Shown: positions 40,185 through 57,482 of the stretch, in pieces
How positions within the stretch are numbered: position 1 is the stretch's first letter
Layout: each line of letters starts with the position of its first letter
Source of the DNA: Propionicimonas sp.
GTDB lineage: Bacteria > Actinomycetota > Actinomycetes > Propionibacteriales > Propionibacteriaceae
Assembly: GCF_029975155.1 (NCBI RefSeq)
Contig: NZ_JARKPQ010000324.1
Coordinates: 1-64,000, forward strand
Direction: 5' to 3'
Length of the DNA: 64,000 bases
The notes under the pieces: model-generated
The model's database searches: none
The model's input: only the letters and a program-made list of their open reading frames with translations
What the model was told of the DNA's origin: nothing
Program-made: the position numbers and the translations under genes

Positions 40185-40472
40185 TCACCTCGCCCGGGCG
40201 CCGGCCACGAGCCGGCGGAAGCCCGCGGCGGCCTTGAACGCCGGCACGACCCCGGCCGGAATCTCGATGCTCTGACCGGTCTGAGGGTTGCGTCCCGTGC
40301 GGGCGGACCGGTCCCGGCGCTCGAAGGTGCCGAAGCCCGCGACGGCGACTCGCTCGCCGCCGGCCACCGCCGCCGCGATCTCCTCGAACGCGGCGGCGAG
40401 CACTGCGTCCACGGCCTTCGGGCTCAGGTCGGTCCTGCCGGACACGGTGCCGGCGAGTGTGGTTCGGTTCAT
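40185..40472 (-). CDS. HU-family DNA-binding protein, divergent from the zinc surface gene
   Basis: 95-residue HU/IHF-fold protein. It begins MNRTTLAGTVSGRTDLSPKAVDAVL and has the beta-arm region GFGTFERRDRSARTGRNPQTGQ, including the conserved RNPQTG tip, and ends IPAGVVPAFKAAAGFRRLVAG. It is close to the usual HU length (90-95), lacks the long Lys/Ala tail of mycobacterial HU, and is probably an accessory paralogue. AGGAGAC precedes ATG 40472. It shares a promoter region with the surface protein gene, and a Zur-like box lies in that region, so HU may be repressed when zinc is plentiful. Confidence 0.85.
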   Translation of the reverse strand: MNRTTLAGTVSGRTDLSPKAVDAVLAAAFEEIAAAVAGGERVAVAGFGTFERRDRSARTGRNPQTGQSIEIPAGVVPAFKAAAGFRRLVAGARAR

Positions 40473-40509
40473 GTGGGTCTCCTGTCTGGTGACGATCTTG
40501 TTGCAAATG

Positions 40510-40526
40510 ATAATGGTTTTCGTTAT
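40510..40526. promoter_or_regulatory. Zur-like box in the HU/surface-protein divergon
   Basis: ATAATGGTTTTCGTTAT lies in an AT-rich patch (40501-40526, TTGCAAATGATAATGGTTTT and on) amid GC-rich DNA. Arms ATAA-G / C-TTAT are palindromic and resemble actinobacterial Zur boxes (TGATAATxATTTTCATTATCA-like). The Zur gene is only about 4 kb away. It is placed to repress both divergent genes. Confidence 0.65.
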
Positions 40527-40607: not shown

Positions 40608-42113
40608 ATGAGTTCCACTCGAACGAGGCCGCGAGCCGCGCTGGCGGCCGTCGCGCTGGCACTGGCCGTGGTGGTGACGCCGTTGACCGCATCGACGGCC
40701 CGCGCCGCGGACCTCGACGATCCGGTACGCCTGGAGACCGGGCACATCGACACGTTCAACCTCGCGCTGAACGGGGACAACTCGGTACGGCTCACCCTGA
40801 AGGAGGACGTCACCGGCTCGCACGTGCTGCGGACGCCGGAGTCGGTCGAGCTGTTCGTGAAGCGGGCGGCCCATCTGGAGAACCTGCCGCCCGCCTATCT
40901 GCCCGCGGGCGCGCCCACCGCACTGTGGTACCTCCCCCTGACCCAGGACCAGGACCTGATCTGGCCGGGCTGGGACACCCAGGGCGTGGCTTCCTACTAC
41001 GGCAGCGACGCCAGTGTCGACATCGCGGTGAGCGCCGTCGACGGCCCCGGCGAGGTCTACCTGTGGTCGGCCGACACGTGGGGAGCGCCGAAGAAGCTGC
41101 TGACCGAGGGCTGGTCGTTCCCCGGCACCATTCACCAGGGCTTCCTCGCCCATGCGCACGCCAACTGGGGCTTCACCGCCCCCGGCACGTACCAGCTGAC
41201 CGCCAATGCCACGGTGACCAGCAAGGACGGCGCGCGGACCTCGACCTCGAACACCGCGACCTACACCTTCGTCGTCCAGCCGCTGACCGACGAGCCGGAT
41301 CCCGAGCCGGAGCCCGAGCCGGAACCCGAGCCCGGTGACACGTCGTTGACCATCGACGGCGTGGCCGGCCACTACCACACCGGCGGGGTGGCAGCCCTGA
41401 CCGCGGTGCCGTCACGCGATGCCGGATCGGATCACTACCACTGGTTCACCCGTGCCTCCGAGGCGGACGGATGGGCCGTGGTCGACGGTGCCCATGGCGC
41501 GACCTATGGCTTCGTGGTCGCCGGGTCCCAACAGGTGAAGGCCGTGCTGTACGACGGGAATCACGAGGTGATCGCGGAGAGCGAGCCGGCGGCCATCGTG
41601 ATCGACGATCACGGCAGCACCCCGGGCATCGGCCCGGAGCTGAGCGTCTCCCTGCCCGCGGAACAGGGCGCCCTGGCGATCAGCGTCGCGCCGGAAGGCC
41701 GGACCAGCGAACTGAGCGACCTCACGCTCAACGCCGAGGCCGACCGCTACCTCTCCGAAGGCTCGATCACCGGGATCACCGTCACCGACACCCGGCCGGG
41801 CGAACTCGGCTGGGCGGCCTCGGGCCGCGTCCGCGACCTGGTCACCGTCGAGGGGGCCGTCCTCGACGGCAAGTACCTGGGCTGGACGCCGAAGGTCGTG
41901 TCCTCCGGCGACGGCCGGTCCGTCGCCGCCGGCGCCCAGGTGGCACCCGGGTTCCCCGACGGCAGCGGCATCAAGGGCTGGAGTGCGCTCGGCTCCGCCG
42001 CGGCCGGCGCGTCGACGGGCACGGCCGTGCTCGGCGCCGATCTCCGGATCGAGGCGCCGACCACCACGTCCGTCGGTGACTACACCGGCGTCGTGCTGAT
42101 CACCGTCATCTGA
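40608..42113 (+). CDS. Secreted surface protein: TIGR03769-type metal repeat plus WxL-like C-terminus
   Basis: 501-residue exported protein, signal peptide ending TASTARAAD. Residues about 40-230 are a TIGR03769 / choice-of-anchor M repeat with GHIDTFNLAL, LIWPGWDTQG and HAHANWGFTAPGTY; the His-x-His motif is shared with four proteins downstream and probably binds zinc. A PEPEPE linker leads to an Ig-like domain with extra histidines (GHYHTGG, DHYHWF). The last 150 residues (ISVAPEG, ITVTDTRPGELGWAASG, LGWTPKVVSSG, LGADLRIEAPTT, DYTGVVLITVI) look like the WxL domain that binds peptidoglycan non-covalently in Gram-positives. The next gene encodes a DUF916-like partner, the usual companion of WxL proteins. 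A Zur-like box lies upstream, so expression should rise when zinc is scarce. ATG 40608 follows GAAAGGA. Confidence 0.72.
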   Translation: MSSTRTRPRAALAAVALALAVVVTPLTASTARAADLDDPVRLETGHIDTFNLALNGDNSVRLTLKEDVTGSHVLRTPESVELFVKRAAHLENLPPAYLPAGAPTALWYLPLTQDQDLIWPGWDTQGVASYYGSDASVDIAVSAVDGPGEVYLWSADTWGAPKKLLTEGWSFPGTIHQGFLAHAHANWGFTAPGTYQLTANATVTSKDGARTSTSNTATYTFVVQPLTDEPDPEPEPEPEPEPGDTSLTIDGVAGHYHTGGVAALTAVPSRDAGSDHYHWFTRASEADGWAVVDGAHGATYGFVVAGSQQVKAVLYDGNHEVIAESEPAAIVIDDHGSTPGIGPELSVSLPAEQGALAISVAPEGRTSELSDLTLNAEADRYLSEGSITGITVTDTRPGELGWAASGRVRDLVTVEGAVLDGKYLGWTPKVVSSGDGRSVAAGAQVAPGFPDGSGIKGWSALGSAAAGASTGTAVLGADLRIEAPTTTSVGDYTGVVLITVI

Positions 42114-42122
42114 TGCCGGCCC

Positions 42123-42152
42123 GGGGCGCCGGTCCGACCGGGCCGGCGCCCC
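42123..42152 (+). terminator. GC hairpin between the surface and DUF916-like genes
   Basis: GGGGCGCCGG / CCGGCGCCCC, a perfect 10-bp stem with a 10-base loop, in the 61-base gap. It has no T-run; it may partly terminate transcription or protect the upstream mRNA, giving more of the surface protein than of its membrane partner. Confidence 0.5.
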
Positions 42153-42174
42153 CGATCTCCGAGGAGAGAGTTCG

Positions 42175-43185
42175 ATGCGATGCCGCCGCCTGCTGTGTGC
42201 GCTCGTGCTGGCCGGGCTGGTCGCGTGGCTCACGCCCGCCGCCACCGCGAACGCCGACTCCGAGTCCGGCCGTCAGACCTGGGCACTGGTGCCGGCCACA
42301 GCCAAGGGGCCGGACGGGCGAGGCGTTCTGGAGTACCTCACCGCTCCGGACGCGAAGCAGCGTGACCGGGTCGCCGTCCGGAACTTCGGCGACCGTCCCC
42401 TCACGGTCGCCCTGTACGCCCAGGACGCGATCCAGACCACCCGGAACGCCTTCGAGCTCCGCACGCCCGAGGAACCGGCGCGAGGTGTCGGTGCGTGGGT
42501 CCGGCTGGACAGGGCCGAGGTGACCGTGCCCGCTCACGGCGACGTCGTGGTCGGCTTCACGCTCCGCGTGCCCGCCAACGCCGAGCCGGGAGATCACGCC
42601 GGCGGCATCGTCGCGGTCAGCCGGGCCGAGGCGACCGCGAACGGCCCTGCGGTGCAGTACCGCGTGGGTACCCGGGTCCATCTCCGGGTCGAGGGGCCGG
42701 TCGCCCCGGCCCTCGATCTGGTCCTGGACGAGGCCACCTTCGCCGGCGCTCCGAATCCGGTCGCCCCGGGCGCCCTGCGGCTCGGGGCCAGGCTGACCAA
42801 TGCCGGAAACGTCCGGCTCGCGCCCACTCTCCGCGTGCGCGCACATGCGTTGTTCGGCCTCTGGTCGGCCGTCAGGGACGTCGAGCAGGACGAGGTGCTG
42901 GCCGGCGGGGAGCTGGCGTCGTCGATCGACGTGCCCGAGGTGCCGCCCCTCGGCCCGTTGTGGGTCACCGTGGAGGTCTCCGAGGTCGGATCGCGCGGGC
43001 AGGACGTCACCGCTGCGGTGTCCGTGGCCGAGCACACGTTGGTGGTGTGGGCAGCGCCCTGGGCGCCCTGGGTCGCGGCCGCGACGCTGCTGCTGGGGGC
43101 CTGGCTCGCCGCGACGGTCCTGCGGCGCCGGCGAAAGACGCCGCCGCCGGCCACTTCGCTTGACGATAGTGATAATCATTCTTAA
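42175..43185 (+). CDS. DUF916-like (WxL-interacting) membrane-anchored protein
   Basis: 336-residue protein with an N-terminal signal peptide (CALVLAGLVAWLTPAATANA), an extracellular part of about 260 residues, and one C-terminal membrane helix (WVAAATLLLGAWLAATVL) followed by basic RRRRK. The extracellular part starts TWALVPATAKGPDGRGVLEYLTAPDAKQRDRVAVRNFGDRPLTVALYAQDA (by its ends) and VPANAEPGDHAGGIVAV, the pattern of DUF916 / WxL-interacting proteins. A second beta domain follows (LTNAGNVRLAPTLRV). GAGGAGAG precedes ATG 42175. It probably holds the WxL-like surface protein at the cell envelope. The 3' end of the gene runs into the Zur-like box of the next operon. Confidence 0.75.
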   Translation: MRCRRLLCALVLAGLVAWLTPAATANADSESGRQTWALVPATAKGPDGRGVLEYLTAPDAKQRDRVAVRNFGDRPLTVALYAQDAIQTTRNAFELRTPEEPARGVGAWVRLDRAEVTVPAHGDVVVGFTLRVPANAEPGDHAGGIVAVSRAEATANGPAVQYRVGTRVHLRVEGPVAPALDLVLDEATFAGAPNPVAPGALRLGARLTNAGNVRLAPTLRVRAHALFGLWSAVRDVEQDEVLAGGELASSIDVPEVPPLGPLWVTVEVSEVGSRGQDVTAAVSVAEHTLVVWAAPWAPWVAAATLLLGAWLAATVLRRRRKTPPPATSLDDSDNHS

Positions 43186-43195: not shown

Positions 43196-43297
43196 ATGAA
43201 TCCCCTCCCGAGCACTCGGCTCGCCGCGCACTCTGGTGCCCGACCCGGCTTCTCGTTCGTCGCACTGGGCCGGCCCCTGCTCGGCGAGCGGCGCTGA
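43196..43297 (+). CDS. 33-residue leaderless leader ORF before rpsN
   Basis: Starts [19 protein letters not shown] and ends LLGERR. Its ATG is exactly where the TAATAT promoter would start transcription. Its TGA shares a base with the rpsN ATG (TGATG), and rpsN has no strong ribosome binding site of its own, so translation of this ORF may be required for rpsN. It could be a regulatory leader peptide or the worn-down remnant of a zinc-free ribosomal protein gene: SGARPGF resembles the GAxPGFG near the N-terminus of L28. No firm family match. Confidence 0.55.
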
Positions 43298-43602
43298 TGG
43301 CCAGCAAGAGCAGGATCGCCGCCGACGCCAGGCGTCGCGTGGTCGTGGCGCGGCATGCCGAGAGGCGTGCCCTGCTGCGCGGACGAAGCGTGGACCCGGC
43401 GCTGTCACCCGAGGAGCGGTCGGCGGCCATGGCGGCGCTGCACCGGCTGCCGCGCGATGCCAGCCCCGTCCGGCTCCGCAACCGGGACGCGATCGACGGC
43501 CGCCCGCGCGGCTACCTGCGCCGGTTCGGGCTCTCCCGGATCCGCGTGCGGGAGCTCGCCCACCGCGGAGAACTGCCCGGTGTCACCACGTCCAGCTGGT
43601 GA
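43297..43602 (+). CDS. rpsN: 30S ribosomal protein S14, zinc-independent paralogue
   Basis: 101-residue uS14 with no cysteine at all, i.e. the 'C-minus' form that lacks the zinc ribbon. [29 protein letters not shown] is the N-terminal extension of the long type, and the conserved C-terminal part is [41 protein letters not shown] (by its ends SPVRLRNR and GELPGV). It replaces the zinc-binding S14 in ribosomes when zinc is limiting, releasing zinc. It lies directly behind a Zur-like box and leader ORF, and before the MRF-like gene, the classic arrangement of this operon in actinobacteria. Other usual members (L28, L33, S18) are missing here. Confidence 0.93.
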
Positions 43603-43734: not shown

Positions 43735-44837
43735 TCCCGCTGCTCGTCGTGACCGGGGTCGACGCCACCTCGATGGCGGCCGCCACCGTCGGTCTGCAAT
43801 GGGACCTGCCCGGCTCGGTCGTGATCCGCCACCACCTCGACGTGCCGGCCGCCGAGCTCACCCGCACGGTCAGCGACGCCGCGGGAGTGGTCGAGGAGGC
43901 CTCGATCGACCTGGACGGAGCGTGCGTCGGCTGCTCGCTGGACGAGGACCTGATCCCGGTCGTCGAGCGCCTCGCCCGCACGGGTCGCTGGGCGTCCATC
44001 GTCCTGCACCTGCCGCCGTCGATGGAGGCCCGGCCGCTGTGTCATGCGCTGGAACAGCACGAGGCGCTGCGGCGGCTCGTCGCGGTGGCCGCGGTGGTCG
44101 CCGTCCTGCGTGGTGGCTCCGTCCGGCACGACCTGCTCGGGAGCGCGGGACTGCTGGACATCGGCGCCGAGGCGGCTCCCGACGACGACCGTGGCGTCGG
44201 TGAGGTGCTGGCCGCCCAGGTGGAGTACGCGGACGCGGTGATCTGCATGAACGGCTGCGACGACACCGCCCGGGAACTGCTGGCGGCACTGGCCCGCCCG
44301 GACGCGATCGTCCAGCACGAGCCCTTCCTGCCCGACGGCGCCCGGTTGCTGGCCCTCGGTCACCGGACCGAGCGGAGCGACGCGTGGACCGCCCCGCTGC
44401 GCGCGGCTCCGCTGCCGCCGCTGGCCGGCCGCAGGGTCTGGCGTCTCGATCTGGCCTCTGCCCGGCCCTTCCACCCGGACCGGCTGATGACCGAGATCGA
44501 GGAACTCGGCGGCGGCCCGCATCGCTCCCGCGGCTGCTTCTGGCTGCCCACCCGGCCCGGCGACCTCTGTGGCTGGGACGGCTGCGGTGGCCACCTCTCG
44601 ATCGGCACCCTGCAGGCCGACGGCCACCGGCCCCCGTCCACCAGGATCGTGATCGTCGGCGACTGGGAGACCGAGGCGGTGAACGCGCTGGTCACCCGGT
44701 TCGAGCGGTGCCTGCTCACCGACTCCGAGCTGGCGGAGCGGGGCAGTGCGTGGGAGGTGCACCACGACGGCTTCGAGCCCTGGCTGGGCGCGATCGGCAG
44801 CCGCGACGGCGTCCGGCTGCCCGGTGATCGCCCCTAG
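43731..44837 (+). CDS. COG0523 / MRF-like protein of the zinc-limitation operon
   Basis: 368 residues from GTG 43731; in-frame GTG starts at 43680 and 43599 (the latter overlapping the rpsN stop) would give 385 or 412 residues. The sequence follows the G3E/COG0523 family in outline: VIPLLVVTGVDATSMAAATVG at the start, DLDGACVGCSLDEDLIPVVERLARTG at about 60-85 (the place of the CxCC motif), and a C-terminal domain RVWRLDLASARPFHPDRL ... SRGCFWLPTRPGDLCGWDGCGG. In mycobacteria the equivalent MRF recruits a hibernation factor to zinc-starved ribosomes. Here the P-loop GxxGxGKT is degenerate (GVDATSM, no lysine) and only GCVGCS remains of the cysteine motif, so ordinary GTPase activity is doubtful. 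The end overlaps the convergent zur gene by four bases. Confidence 0.7.
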   Translation: MIPLLVVTGVDATSMAAATVGLQWDLPGSVVIRHHLDVPAAELTRTVSDAAGVVEEASIDLDGACVGCSLDEDLIPVVERLARTGRWASIVLHLPPSMEARPLCHALEQHEALRRLVAVAAVVAVLRGGSVRHDLLGSAGLLDIGAEAAPDDDRGVGEVLAAQVEYADAVICMNGCDDTARELLAALARPDAIVQHEPFLPDGARLLALGHRTERSDAWTAPLRAAPLPPLAGRRVWRLDLASARPFHPDRLMTEIEELGGGPHRSRGCFWLPTRPGDLCGWDGCGGHLSIGTLQADGHRPPSTRIVIVGDWETEAVNALVTRFERCLLTDSELAERGSAWEVHHDGFEPWLGAIGSRDGVRLPGDRP

Positions 44838-45241
44838 CGCCGCGCTGCCGCCGCGCACTCCGGACACAATCCGAAGACCTCGAACACGTGCCGGGTGACG
44901 GTGTAGCCGTGCTTCTTGGCCGCGGACGCGATCCAGCTCTCGCTGGGCGGGTCGAGCACCTCGGCCCTGCCGCAGTTCTCGCACACCAGGTGATGATGGT
45001 GGCCGCCCGGAGGGCAGGCCCGGAACAGCTGCCCGCCCGGAGCGGTGATCGTGTCCGCGCTCCCGGTCTCGGCCAGGGCGTTGAGCTGCCGGTACACCGT
45101 CGCCAGGCCGACGGGCGTGCCGGCGTCGTGCAGGAGCCGGTGCACCTGCTGTGCCGAGACGAAGCCAGGGGACGAGTCCAGAGCGTGCCGCACCGCGTCC
45201 TTCTGTGCGGTGCGGCGGGTGTCCGGGGTGGCGCTGCCCAT
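44834..45241 (-). CDS. zur: Fur-family zinc uptake regulator
   Basis: 135-residue Fur-family repressor. The winged helix has SAQQVHRLLHDAGTPVGLATVYRQLNALAETG (by its ends), and the metal-binding region GGHHHHLVCENCGRAEVLD has the histidine cluster and first CxxC, with a second pair in GLCPECAA at the C-terminus. The four cysteines form the structural zinc site of Zur/Fur. Genomic context (cysteine-free S14, MRF, anchored-repeat metal ABC system, Zur-like boxes) makes zinc the likely effector rather than iron. GAGGAG lies seven bases before ATG 45241. No Zur-like box is seen before its own gene. Confidence 0.9.
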   Translation of the reverse strand: MGSATPDTRRTAQKDAVRHALDSSPGFVSAQQVHRLLHDAGTPVGLATVYRQLNALAETGSADTITAPGGQLFRACPPGGHHHHLVCENCGRAEVLDPPSESWIASAAKKHGYTVTRHVFEVFGLCPECAAAARR

Positions 45242-45353
45242 GATGGCTCTCCTCGGTGATGCAGGCTGCGTCCGAGCATAGACACCCCGTCCTCCCCTGA
45301 GCCCTGATCCACCGAATCCGTACGAGCCCGTCGACCGGGACGAGCCCTCTGAC

Positions 45354-45534
45354 GTCATCCCGGACTTGCCCGGGATGACAGCCCTCAACCGTCATCCCGG
45401 GCTTGACCCGGGATCCCTGTAGTGACGTTGTCAGGCCGGTGCGGGGATCCCGGCGTCCGCCGGGATGACGTTGGGGGGCGATCGTCGTGGCGTTGCCGGG
45501 TCGGTGCGGGGATCCCGGCGGGCGCCGGGATGAC
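45354..45534. repeat. Family A palindromic repeat cluster
   Basis: Three or more GTCATCCCGG / CCGGGATGAC elements (45354, 45391, 45442-45470, 45500-45534). This cluster fills most of the 305-base gap between zur and the ABC pair (45242-45546); nothing else is recognisable there. Confidence 0.85.
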
Positions 45535-54758: not shown

Positions 54759-55772
54759 ATGCGAAACGCGCTCCGCCGTCCTCGGCGGCTCACCGCAGGG
54801 CTCGTGGCCGCAGCCGCGCTCACCAGCCTCGTCGCCGCACCGCCGGTGCTGCCGGCGCGGGCGGAGACGCCGCCGCCGGAGGATCCGAACCTCACCCAGA
54901 CCCTGGCGCCGGGCCAGCCCGTCCGCGAGGGTCAGCACGTCCTCCAGGCCGGACACGTCGACCTGGGTCCGAAGTACGACGGCGGCCACTGGCGGCTGCT
55001 GGTGCACGACGACGCCGCGCGTGCGGACGCCGGCGCCACCAGCGTGTGGCGCCATCCGGAGGAGACGGTGCTGCGCGTCCTCGACCGGGCCAGGCTCACC
55101 GTGCCGGACGACCCGGCCTACGAATTCCTCGGCACCGAACCGGGGAGCAGCGTCTGGGTGGTCCCCCAGACCCAGAACACCACGGTGGTCTGGCTCGGCT
55201 GGAACACCCAGGACCCCGAGGTGATGAAGACCATCGACCGCGGCGTCACCCTGTCGCTGGACGGTGTCCAGGGGCCCGGAACAGTCACCGTCTACCTGCA
55301 GTCCGGGAGCTTCGGCGAGCCCCAGGTGCTGTGGGACTCGCGCAGAGCGGAGGTCCAGCCGATCTGGGTGGACGTGAACACGCACACCCACGCCAATTGG
55401 GTGTTCACCGCACCGGGCGTCTACCTGTTGCGGCTCACCGCGACGGCCGACCTGATCGACGGCGGCACGGCCGGCGACACCCAGCTGATCCGGTTCGCCG
55501 TGGGCAGTGACACTCCCGCCGCGGACGCCCTGACCGCCGTCTGGACCGGACCCGGGGCGCAAGTCTCCGGCCCGGCTGCCACAGCCGCCGCCGAGCCGCC
55601 ACCGCCATCGGCCCAGGACCCTGCGGTGCCCGTTCTGATCGGCGTGATCGTGCTCGTCGCACTGGGACTCGTCGCGGGCGTGGTCGTCGCGGCGATCCAC
55701 GGCACGAGGATCCGCAGGAGGGCGCTCACCGCCCGATCCGGGCCCACCGGCGACTCGGGGAATCCGGCGTGA
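54759..55772 (+). CDS. Short anchored surface repeat protein (TIGR03769-type)
   Basis: 337 residues from ATG 54759, chosen over ATG 54747 because GGAG lies six bases before it. Signal peptide LTAGLVAAAALTSLVAAPPVLPARA. One repeat: GHVDLGPKYDGG, VVWLGWNTQDPEV, HTHANWVFTAPGVY. A Pro/Ala linker follows, then a C-terminal helix (VLIGVIVLVALGLVAGVVVAAI) with basic HGTRIRRR. It is a one-repeat relative of the giant protein at 49252, probably a membrane-anchored metal-binding relay for the importer. Its stop overlaps the GTG start of the ATPase by four bases. Confidence 0.88.
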   Translation: MRNALRRPRRLTAGLVAAAALTSLVAAPPVLPARAETPPPEDPNLTQTLAPGQPVREGQHVLQAGHVDLGPKYDGGHWRLLVHDDAARADAGATSVWRHPEETVLRVLDRARLTVPDDPAYEFLGTEPGSSVWVVPQTQNTTVVWLGWNTQDPEVMKTIDRGVTLSLDGVQGPGTVTVYLQSGSFGEPQVLWDSRRAEVQPIWVDVNTHTHANWVFTAPGVYLLRLTATADLIDGGTAGDTQLIRFAVGSDTPAADALTAVWTGPGAQVSGPAATAAAEPPPPSAQDPAVPVLIGVIVLVALGLVAGVVVAAIHGTRIRRRALTARSGPTGDSGNPA

Positions 55773-56530
55773 CCGGCCCGGACCGGCCTGCCCTGGCCGC
55801 GTCGGGCGTCTCGGTGGCGCTCGGTGGCCGTCTGGTCCTGGAGTCGGCCGACCTCAGCGTGGACCACGGCGAACTCGTCGGCCTGATCGGGCCCAACGGT
55901 GCGGGCAAGACCACCCTGCTGCGAACGGTGCTCGGCGTGCTCAGACCCGTTCGGGGCGAGGTGACCGTCGAGGGCCGGCCCACTCGTCCCGGACGCACCG
56001 CGATCGGCTATGTGCCGCAACGCCACGAGTTCGCCTGGGAGTTCCCGATCTCGGTGGCGAACGCCGTGATGACCGGCCTCACCCGCCGGCTCGGCGTGCT
56101 GCGCCGACCGGACGAGGCCAGCTGGCGGGCCGTGGCGGACGCGCTCGACCGGGTGCGGCTGACCCGGTTGGCCGACCGGCCGATCGGCCAGCTCTCCGGT
56201 GGCCAGCGTCAGCGGGTGCTGGTCGCTCGCGCGCTCGCGCTGCGGCCGACGGTGCTGCTGCTGGACGAGCCGTTCGCCGGGCTGGACATGCCCGCGCAGG
56301 AACTGCTCTCGGAGCTGTTCCTCGAGCTCGCCGGAGAAGGCCGCGCGCTGCTGATGGCCACGCACGACCTCGCCGGAGCCCTGTACTCGTGTGACCGGAT
56401 CGCCCTGCTGAACCGCACGGTGGTCGCCGCCGGTCGTCCGGCCGACCTGGCCGCCGACACCTCGGCGTGGAGGTCCACCTTCGGCGTCAGTGAGAACAGC
56501 GCCCTGCTCCGCATCCTGAAGGCGGCCTGA
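55769..56530 (+). CDS. Metal ABC transporter ATPase (TIGR03771-like)
   Basis: 253-residue ATPase of the zinc/manganese importer family (ZnuC/MntB type). Walker A GPNGAGKTT, Q-loop in YVPQRHEF (the PQR-x-x-F pattern typical of cluster 9 metal ATPases), signature LSGGQRQRVLVARAL, Walker B VLLLDEPFAGLD, H-loop ATHDLAG. The GTG start at 55769 overlaps the stop of the surface protein (GTGA). It should power the permease at 56532. Confidence 0.92.
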   Translation: MTGPDRPALAASGVSVALGGRLVLESADLSVDHGELVGLIGPNGAGKTTLLRTVLGVLRPVRGEVTVEGRPTRPGRTAIGYVPQRHEFAWEFPISVANAVMTGLTRRLGVLRRPDEASWRAVADALDRVRLTRLADRPIGQLSGGQRQRVLVARALALRPTVLLLDEPFAGLDMPAQELLSELFLELAGEGRALLMATHDLAGALYSCDRIALLNRTVVAAGRPADLAADTSAWRSTFGVSENSALLRILKAA

Positions 56531-56531
56531 C

Positions 56532-57482
56532 GTGAGCCCGGTCGACTTCCTCACCGATCTGCTCAACCCGGACCTGGCCTTCCTGCCGAAGGCGCTGGCC
56601 GTCGCGGTCATGTCGTCGATCGTGTGCGGCGTGGTCGGCTGCTTCGTCGTGCTGCGCGGCATGGCGTTCATCGGCGACGCGGTCGCCCACGCGGTCTTCC
56701 CCGGTCTGGCCGTCGCCTTCGTGCTGTCCGGCAACCTCGTGCTCGGCGGATCCGTCGCCGGCATCCTCACCGCGGTCCTGGTCGCCGTGTTCGCCCAGAA
56801 CCGGCGACTGAAGGAGGACTCCGTGATCGGCGTCCTCTTCGTGGCGGCGTTCGCCCTCGGCATCGTGGTGATCTCCCAGGCACCCGGCTACGCCGGCTCG
56901 CTGCAACAGTTCCTGTTCGGCTCGATCACCGGCATCCCCGACTCCGACCTGTGGGTGGTCGGGGTCACCGGCCTGCTGGTACTCGCCCTGGTGTTCGGGC
57001 TGCACAAGGAGTTCGTCACGATCAGCCTCGACCGCGAGTCCGCCCGGGCGCTGGGCGTGCCGGTGTTCGCCCTCGACCTGGTGCTCTACGTCCTGGTCAC
57101 CCTCGCCGTGGTGATCAGCGTGCAGACCATCGGCAACGTCCTGGTGCTCGCCCTGCTGGTGACCCCCGCCGCGGCGGCCCGGCTGCTCACCGATCGGCTC
57201 GGCGTGATGATGGGCCTGGCACCGGCGATCGGTGCGACGTCCGCGCTGGTCGGTCTCTACGTCTCGTGGTCCTGGGACCTTCCGACCGGAGGGACGATCG
57301 TCCTGGTGCTCACCGCCGCCTTCCTGGCGGCCTGGCTGCTCGGCCCACGCCACGGACTGCTCGCGCTGAGCCGGAGCCGCCGATCCAGGGCCGGTGACAC
57401 CGAGGTCGGCGCTGCTCCGCGAGCGGCCGGCCCGGTTCACCCCGCTTCCCGAGCCGTCACGACCGGAGGTACCCCTCGATGA
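56532..57482 (+). CDS. Metal ABC transporter permease (TIGR03770-like)
   Basis: 316-residue permease of the ZnuB/TroC family with about eight or nine helices. GCFVVLRGMAFIGDAVAHAVFPGLA holds the conserved histidine/aspartate metal path (about residues 37-60, described by its first part), and RALGVPVFALDLVLYVLVTLAVVISVQTIGNVLVLALLVTPAAAA (by its ends RALGVPV and LLVTPAAAA) contacts the ATPase and ends the core. GTG 56532 follows the ATPase stop by one base. A basic C-terminal extension of about 45 residues is unusual for ZnuB. It completes a zinc importer with 53151 and 55769. Confidence 0.92.
   Translation: MSPVDFLTDLLNPDLAFLPKALAVAVMSSIVCGVVGCFVVLRGMAFIGDAVAHAVFPGLAVAFVLSGNLVLGGSVAGILTAVLVAVFAQNRRLKEDSVIGVLFVAAFALGIVVISQAPGYAGSLQQFLFGSITGIPDSDLWVVGVTGLLVLALVFGLHKEFVTISLDRESARALGVPVFALDLVLYVLVTLAVVISVQTIGNVLVLALLVTPAAAARLLTDRLGVMMGLAPAIGATSALVGLYVSWSWDLPTGGTIVLVLTAAFLAAWLLGPRHGLLALSRSRRSRAGDTEVGAAPRAAGPVHPASRAVTTGGTPR

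Follow-up and report, generated by a model that had tools for sequence, protein, structure and literature searches.

How is a zinc-linked surface protein fixed to an actinobacterial wall when its chain does not end in a hydrophobic stretch? The question is raised by a gene pair in a 64,000-nucleotide stretch of DNA from Propionicimonas sp. (contig NZ_JARKPQ010000324.1, positions 1 to 64,000; hereafter the window), in which P0002, a secreted protein with a choice-of-anchor M (choice_anch_M) domain, is followed by P0001, a protein of the DUF916 type. An earlier interpretation based on the letters alone (the sequence-only reading) described a surface domain fused to a WxL-like anchor beside a DUF916-type gene, and that observation is confirmed here. 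We consider it probable that P0002 acts at the cell surface during zinc starvation and is anchored to the wall through a WxL domain, with P0001 as its partner. Sequence comparison establishes the domain identities (for the tail, through relatives), the conservation of the pair, the finding of a single such pair in the genome, and the presence of the same fusion in another genus. The features of the two genes are as follows.

40608..42113, + strand: P0002, secreted choice-of-anchor M protein with a C-terminal WxL-like domain, 501 amino acids (open frame, domain scans, relatives)
40731..41276, + strand: choice_anch_M (NF038134) domain, including the TIGR03769 repeat (model matches, alignment)
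41277..41615, + strand: acidic PE-repeat linker and spacer with HYHTG/HYHWF (sequence reading; inference)
41616..42110, + strand: putative divergent WxL domain, residues 337-501 (profile homology through relatives; beta-rich model)
42175..43185, + strand: P0001, DUF916-type WxL-interacting protein (WxLIP), 336 amino acids, with a signal-like N-terminus, two beta domains, and a C-terminal helix (open frame, Pfam, model)
42340..42609, + strand: PF06030 (WxLIP_PGBD) match in P0001, residues 56-145 (Pfam scan)
43060..43137, + strand: predicted C-terminal (transmembrane) helix of P0001, then RRRRK (model, hydropathy)

P0002 opens with an N-terminus that is hydrophobic and signal-like by hydropathy and runs from the choice-of-anchor M domain through the acidic PE linker and the spacer to a 165-residue tail, which places the WxL-like part (residues 337-501 of 501) at the C-terminus of a secreted protein. 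The spacer gave no convincing family match in a Pfam scan and looks Ig-like by eye. NF038134 covers residues 42-223 with 146.4 bits, above its curated cut-off of 55, and TIGR03769 covers residues 181-223 with 51.2 bits against a cut-off of 30.9, ending the choice-of-anchor M domain. With both models over cut-off and the tail assigned to WxL via relatives, the claim that a TIGR03769-type repeat shares one chain with a WxL-like C-terminal domain holds. The motifs GHID (residues 45-48) and HAHANWGF (residues 182-189) belong to patterns, GHxD (H46, D48) and HxHxxWxF (H182, H184), that are invariant in 13/13 aligned domains, these being the longer ones among 22 matches, with five from the window itself. 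From family context, we infer that the choice_anch_M domain of P0002 may bind zinc.

Because neither Pfam nor NCBIfam returned a match when the tail was scanned directly, relatives were collected. In A4, an alignment of 45 tail relatives that includes the window row, 32 members other than that row match PF13731 (WxL) at E values up to 1, the best at 1.2e-6; in A1 (13 members, window included), 4 do so at E values up to 10 (best 6.3e-9). Profile comparison of A4 by hhalign with A7, six sequences from four actinobacterial genomes that all match PF13731, returned a probability of 97.5% (E 7.8e-12, for this single comparison) over 118 columns spanning the VTDxR...GW region and the C-terminal strands. 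The sole control, A4 against the DUF916 alignment A5, gave 2.4%. In addition, the tail of a choice_anch_M fusion from Actinoplanes utahensis scores 26.0 bits with PF13731, above the cut-off of 25; the tails of two further fusions, from Micromonospora and from a genome designated G342, had no PF13731 match at E 0.05. The proposed hidden Markov model check against WxL failed for the single sequence but succeeded for family members, for the profile comparison, and for a relative over the Pfam cut-off. Given the family-member matches, the comparison with A7, and the A. utahensis fusion, the tail of P0002 is, by homology, a divergent WxL domain.

The placement of the motifs within this domain had to be revised. 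Passages of PMC5817068 describe the WxL domain as having two W-x-L motifs, the distal one of the form YxxxLTWxL. These had been assigned to LGWTPKV (W426) and the final ITVI, which is wrong: the first-motif tryptophan is W402 of P0002 (GWAAS), present in 45/45 A4 rows and 13/13 A1 rows, and the second tryptophan is lost. LGWTPKV forms a separate block whose W426 is also conserved in 45/45 A4 rows, in part through selection, because the scan pattern demanded LGW; W402 lies outside that pattern. A strict first W-x-L occurs in 11 of the 45 A4 rows, and neither a tryptophan within the last 14 residues nor a strict distal W-x-L occurs in any of them (0/45 each). The distal segment of P0002 itself, YTGVVLITVI, has no tryptophan.

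The P0001 gene starts sixty-one bases after that of P0002. Its product matches PF06030 with 25.5 bits (E 1.5e-5), just below the cut-off of 27.3, and all 12 members of its alignment, P0001 included, match this family (best 5.9e-12). By sequence profile, the P0001 family also reaches EfmWxLIP1 in the PDB (E 9.5e-5 and 5.2e-5). The predicted structure (predicted local distance difference test, pLDDT, 88.2) consists of two beta domains and a helix at residues 296-321, the second beta domain being present although DUF3324 is undetected by sequence. Its best PDB match is the solved Enterococcus faecium WxLIP, 9i1y (E 7.8e-13; template modeling score, TMt, 0.56), and 9i25, titled as a WxLIP bound to a long WxL protein, is matched as well. 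Family and structural matches together bear out the earlier claim that the next gene has a DUF916 layout. After the WxLIP, the P0001 model matches CfaA-type chaperones and other Ig-like proteins. For the tail, the model is beta-rich (pLDDT 92.6; predicted template modeling score, pTM, 0.83), and its best Foldseek matches in the PDB are chaperone-usher pilins (CfaB, E 6.6e-4, TM 0.41) and GH123-type domains. As modeled, the tail resembles the pilin and the DUF916 partner the chaperone of chaperone-usher systems. Passages of PMC10599100 report a prediction in which the WxL sandwich has a gap that is filled, and the sandwich completed, by a hairpin of the WxLIP; the pilin-chaperone likeness of both partners fits this idea, but as an analogy.

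The pair recurs well beyond this locus. Tail matches, 15 in total, occur in 12 of 117 same-family genomes (own included), and a P0001 relative is encoded in 12 of the 14 same-family loci other than the window's, being absent from the L016 and L018 stretches. Across the phylum sample, the tail was found in 32 of 396 genomes, again counting our own; the PF13731 model alone retrieved 14 of the 396, with 8 above cut-off. A DUF916-like gene is present in 27 of the 30 phylum loci examined (own included), and two of the three exceptions (L047, L058) are cut by contig ends. Among the named loci, which are the best 80 of 110 confirmed relatives, 69 have a DUF916-like gene directly downstream of a tail gene, no more than 600 bases away; L147 has two tail genes, with the DUF916-like gene after the second. 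At least two of the 11 named loci lacking it (L126, L162) end within 110 bases of the gene. In the window's own genome, a single tail match (E up to 1) and a single DUF916-like match were found, and both belong to this locus. Judged from these sequence matches, the anchor with its DUF916 partner is not confined to Firmicutes. Since WxL-like tails occur in 32/396 actinobacterial genomes, the novelty lies in the zinc-linked cargo and the setting, not in the anchor; of the sequence-only proposal of a distinct actinobacterial device, the cargo and setting stand as new, but tails of this kind are not foreign to actinobacteria. They were found in species of Actinoplanes, Streptomyces, and Microbacterium, among others, where it is not obvious what role they would have toward host cells. 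Other classes of the phylum encode short and long WxL-like proteins with DARGTGxGW-type motifs (L045, L048, L050, L194, L196, L208, and others), and several loci carry two such genes in tandem, nearer to the Firmicutes cluster layout.

Fusion of choice_anch_M to a WxL-like tail was found in four cases: the window, A. utahensis (L090), Micromonospora sp. 15K316 (L086), and G342. The A. utahensis fusion scores 183.9 bits with NF038134, and the next gene matches PF06030 with 43.8 bits (cut-off 27.3); beyond this DUF916 gene, further choice_anch_M frames stand in line, with ZnuA-like and ABC ATPase frames by eye. The Micromonospora fusion (188.1 bits) likewise has other choice_anch_M frames nearby, and the G342 fusion (69.2 bits) has a DUF916 neighbor at 34.5 bits. 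L086 and L090 represent 2 of the 80 named loci. Within the family, choice_anch_M occurs in 21 of 117 genomes and shares a frame with a tail match only in the window's own; in the phylum sample, it occurs in 4 of 396, with both domains in one frame only in G000 (the window's genome) and G342. In two same-family genomes, choice_anch_M occurs as a single domain on a protein that is anchored differently: the one at L213 (6314-7654) matches the LPXTG model TIGR01167 at 17.0 bits (cut-off 15.9), and the one at L215 (5280-7109) has a PQTG tail by eye and no TIGR01167 match. Neither a tail nor a DUF916-like gene was found in the searched stretches of the relatives. The tree sets the window tail apart from the other three fusion tails (3 changes), and an approximately unbiased test does not reject the four as one clade (p 0.424).

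Related tails also carry other cargo. We scanned 57 nonredundant N-terminal parts with Pfam (E up to 1e-4) and retrieved purple acid phosphatase N-terminal domains (26), metallophosphatases (25), HtaA (3), GH92 (2), GH97 (1), and PBP_like_2 (1); choice-of-anchor M fusions account for two of the 57. The counts lean toward phosphatases because, judged by eye, the query alignment A3 has phosphatase fusions in four of its six rows, and they are therefore not frequencies. HtaA heme domains accompany WxL-like tails in three members of A6 by Pfam, and L038:379-1935 is HtaA-like by eye. In Actinacidiphila glaucinigra (L147:930-2756), a PBP_like_2 (PF12849) substrate-binding domain and a WxL-like tail share one chain.

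The setting of the pair is a zinc-uptake type island that also encodes a CobW-type gene, a TIGR03773 surface protein, a TIGR03772/ZnuA substrate protein in which a choice_anch_M-type domain recurs, and another choice_anch_M protein. The features nearest to the argument are these.

40185-40472, - strand: gene for a DNA-binding protein of the HU/IHF type (PF00216), oriented away from the fusion gene (Pfam)
40508..40522, + strand: Zur-box-like site TGATAATGGTTTTCG, in the gap between the fusion gene and the divergent HU-type gene, ~85 bases upstream of the former (mismatch scan)
43164..43184, + strand: overlapping pair of Zur-box-like sites where P0001 ends, ahead of the S14 gene (mismatch scan)
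43297-43602: S14 gene
44834-45388: Fur-family gene (domain scan)
55769-57482: ABC ATPase and permease frames (read by eye)

The window was scanned with a consensus that we take to be that of Zur. Six matches (up to 3 mismatches, two strands) fell in four places against 0.03 expected, a figure from a dinucleotide control, a separate mononucleotide-shuffle control being weak; one of the places, 26474, looks unrelated. Subject to that consensus, the site at 40508-40522 agrees with the Zur-like box noted earlier at the fusion gene. Micromonospora has a Zur-like site just before its fusion (L086:3027). Zur control of P0002 and P0001 is a prediction from family context, under which the pair would be zinc regulated. 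With the box between the two genes, the HU/IHF-type gene possibly encodes a zinc-regulated nucleoid protein. Hydropathy shows a terminal hydrophobic stretch in both of the island's other choice_anch_M surface proteins but none at the end of P0002, in line with the contrast to membrane-helix tails that had been drawn from sequence. The locus might be foreign or a contaminant. The assembly (G000) comprises 5.0 Mb in 404 contigs with 8.31% contamination, and the nine same-genus genomes of the sample measure 2.2-3.4 Mb; none of the nine has the full choice_anch_M match set (G102 has one partial match). Against a foreign origin, the island substrate protein is 76% identical to that of a same-family genome.

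Several results weigh against a WxL-anchored zinc protein held by P0001. The tail of P0002 alone matched no family in Pfam or NCBIfam, did not reach the PF13731 cut-off, and lacks both strict W-x-L motifs (WAA; no distal tryptophan). The structure check, which favored the partner through its best match to a solved WxLIP, gave no direct structural match to WxL for the tail, with no WxL chain among the best 50 of 833 matches; PDB profile searches with the tail alignments found none either. DUF3324 is absent from the families matched by P0001 and from the 25 listed, of 32 in all, for its alignment. The cluster definition used for Firmicutes, two WxL proteins per WxLIP (PMC10599100), does not fit this genome, in which one of each was found. 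Among the other fusions, the 10.7-kb Micromonospora locus has no DUF916-like gene, the 19 kb of the G342 locus hold no other choice_anch_M gene, and neither the A. utahensis nor the G342 locus has a Zur-like site at up to 3 mismatches.

Under the reading that we favor, low zinc would release Zur from the box at 40508, and P0002 and P0001 would be made together and secreted. The C-terminal helix would keep P0001 in the cell membrane, where its DUF916 domain may grip the WxL tail of P0002 by beta-sandwich completion, as predicted for Firmicutes WxLIP/WxL pairs. Tail and P0001 would sit on peptidoglycan and hold the choice-of-anchor M domain outward, where the GHxD and HxHxxWxF residues could bind zinc and help to deliver it to an ABC transporter of the anchored-repeat type, whose genes lie 11-15 kb downstream. 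Strand insertion, wall binding, and zinc hand-over are proposed from family context.

The alternative that survives best, although we regard it as unlikely, is that the tail is a docking module that does not bind peptidoglycan: a membrane-held, chaperone-like P0001 would be the real anchor, with P0002 tethered to the membrane through it. The C-terminal helix and RRRRK of P0001 suit this arrangement, as do the loss of most strict W-x-L motifs and the likeness of the tail to CfaB/Csu pilins and of P0001, after WxLIP, to CfaA and other chaperones; however, the pilin TM-scores are only ~0.4, and passages of PMC5817068 report that Firmicutes WxL domains bind peptidoglycan. It is a little less plausible still that the anchor is as we propose and the choice-of-anchor M domain binds heme, another metal, or a metallophore instead of Zn2+. 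The domain has no PDB sequence match, no functional test of it appeared in the titles and abstracts searched, and HtaA heme domains occur on the same tail type (3/57). Zinc is favored by recurrence of the domain in the island's ZnuA-type substrate protein, by the S14 and Fur-family genes nearby, and, in passages of PMC6711530, by Zur repression of the Corynebacterium diphtheriae locus. That the tail is a generic pilin/NEW3-type beta-sandwich beside a coincidental DUF916-like gene is very improbable: P0002 has no direct Pfam WxL match and other beta-sandwich folds lead its structural matches, but the profile comparison, the intermediates, and the near-constant DUF916-like neighbor speak against it.

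Among known systems, WxL-mediated anchoring of P0002 most resembles the Firmicutes WxL/WxLIP clusters (Csc, Elr, E. faecium loci A-C), in which a large secreted protein has a C-terminal WxL domain and the neighboring DUF916 protein has two beta domains and a C-terminal helix. Here, in contrast, there is one WxL protein, both strict motifs are eroded, DUF3324 is undetected by sequence, and the cargo is zinc-linked, whereas passages on the Firmicutes systems link theirs to host binding (PMC10599100) or carbohydrate use (PMC1534035). The choice-of-anchor M/TIGR03769-TIGR03773 anchored-repeat ABC systems share the surface domain, the TIGR03772 substrate protein, and zinc-starvation-type neighbors; P0002 differs in its anchor, a WxL tail with a DUF916 partner; LPXTG-type tails or hydrophobic helices take this place in same-family relatives and in the other proteins of the island. 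As described in parts of PMC6711530, an anchored-repeat ABC locus and surface proteins of C. diphtheriae are repressed by zinc and Zur, among them CmrA/CmrA2, to which dip0439, from the troA locus, is reportedly similar; compared by description only, these proteins differ from P0002 in their predicted sortase anchoring. CfaA-CfaB resembles partner and tail in the folds of its two halves, but the envelope type is different, an usher would not be expected, the TM-scores are weak, and the likeness is an analogy only.

Excerpts from the literature place WxL proteins largely in Firmicutes (>91% of 938 sequences; PMC9772566) and WxL/DUF916 pairs almost wholly in Lactobacillales and Bacillales (PMC10599100). 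WxL and DUF916/DUF3324 genes are reported from honeybee lactobacilli (PMC4449606). DUF916 and metallophosphatases are mentioned near Ang-2 proteins (PMC12537917), and PMC10599100 proposes that the WxLIP inserts its membrane helix into host membranes. At the level of titles, abstracts, and passages, with few subscription papers, we found no account of actinobacterial WxL/DUF916 pairs or of a choice_anch_M-WxL fusion. It is possible, and we advance it tentatively, that WxL tails and DUF916 partners are a widespread actinobacterial means of displaying nutrient-capture proteins (for zinc, heme, and phosphate), in which the partner completes the client's beta-sandwich in the manner of a pilus chaperone and stays in the bacterium's own membrane. 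If so, the Firmicutes role in host adhesion and the insertion into host membranes would be a special case. Occurrence of the pair in Actinoplanes, Streptomyces, and other actinobacteria, here in a zinc-type island, makes the host-membrane proposal testable and suggests a more general role in surface display. The fusion itself provides a concrete WxL example of the anchor swapping behind the choice-of-anchor M family name.

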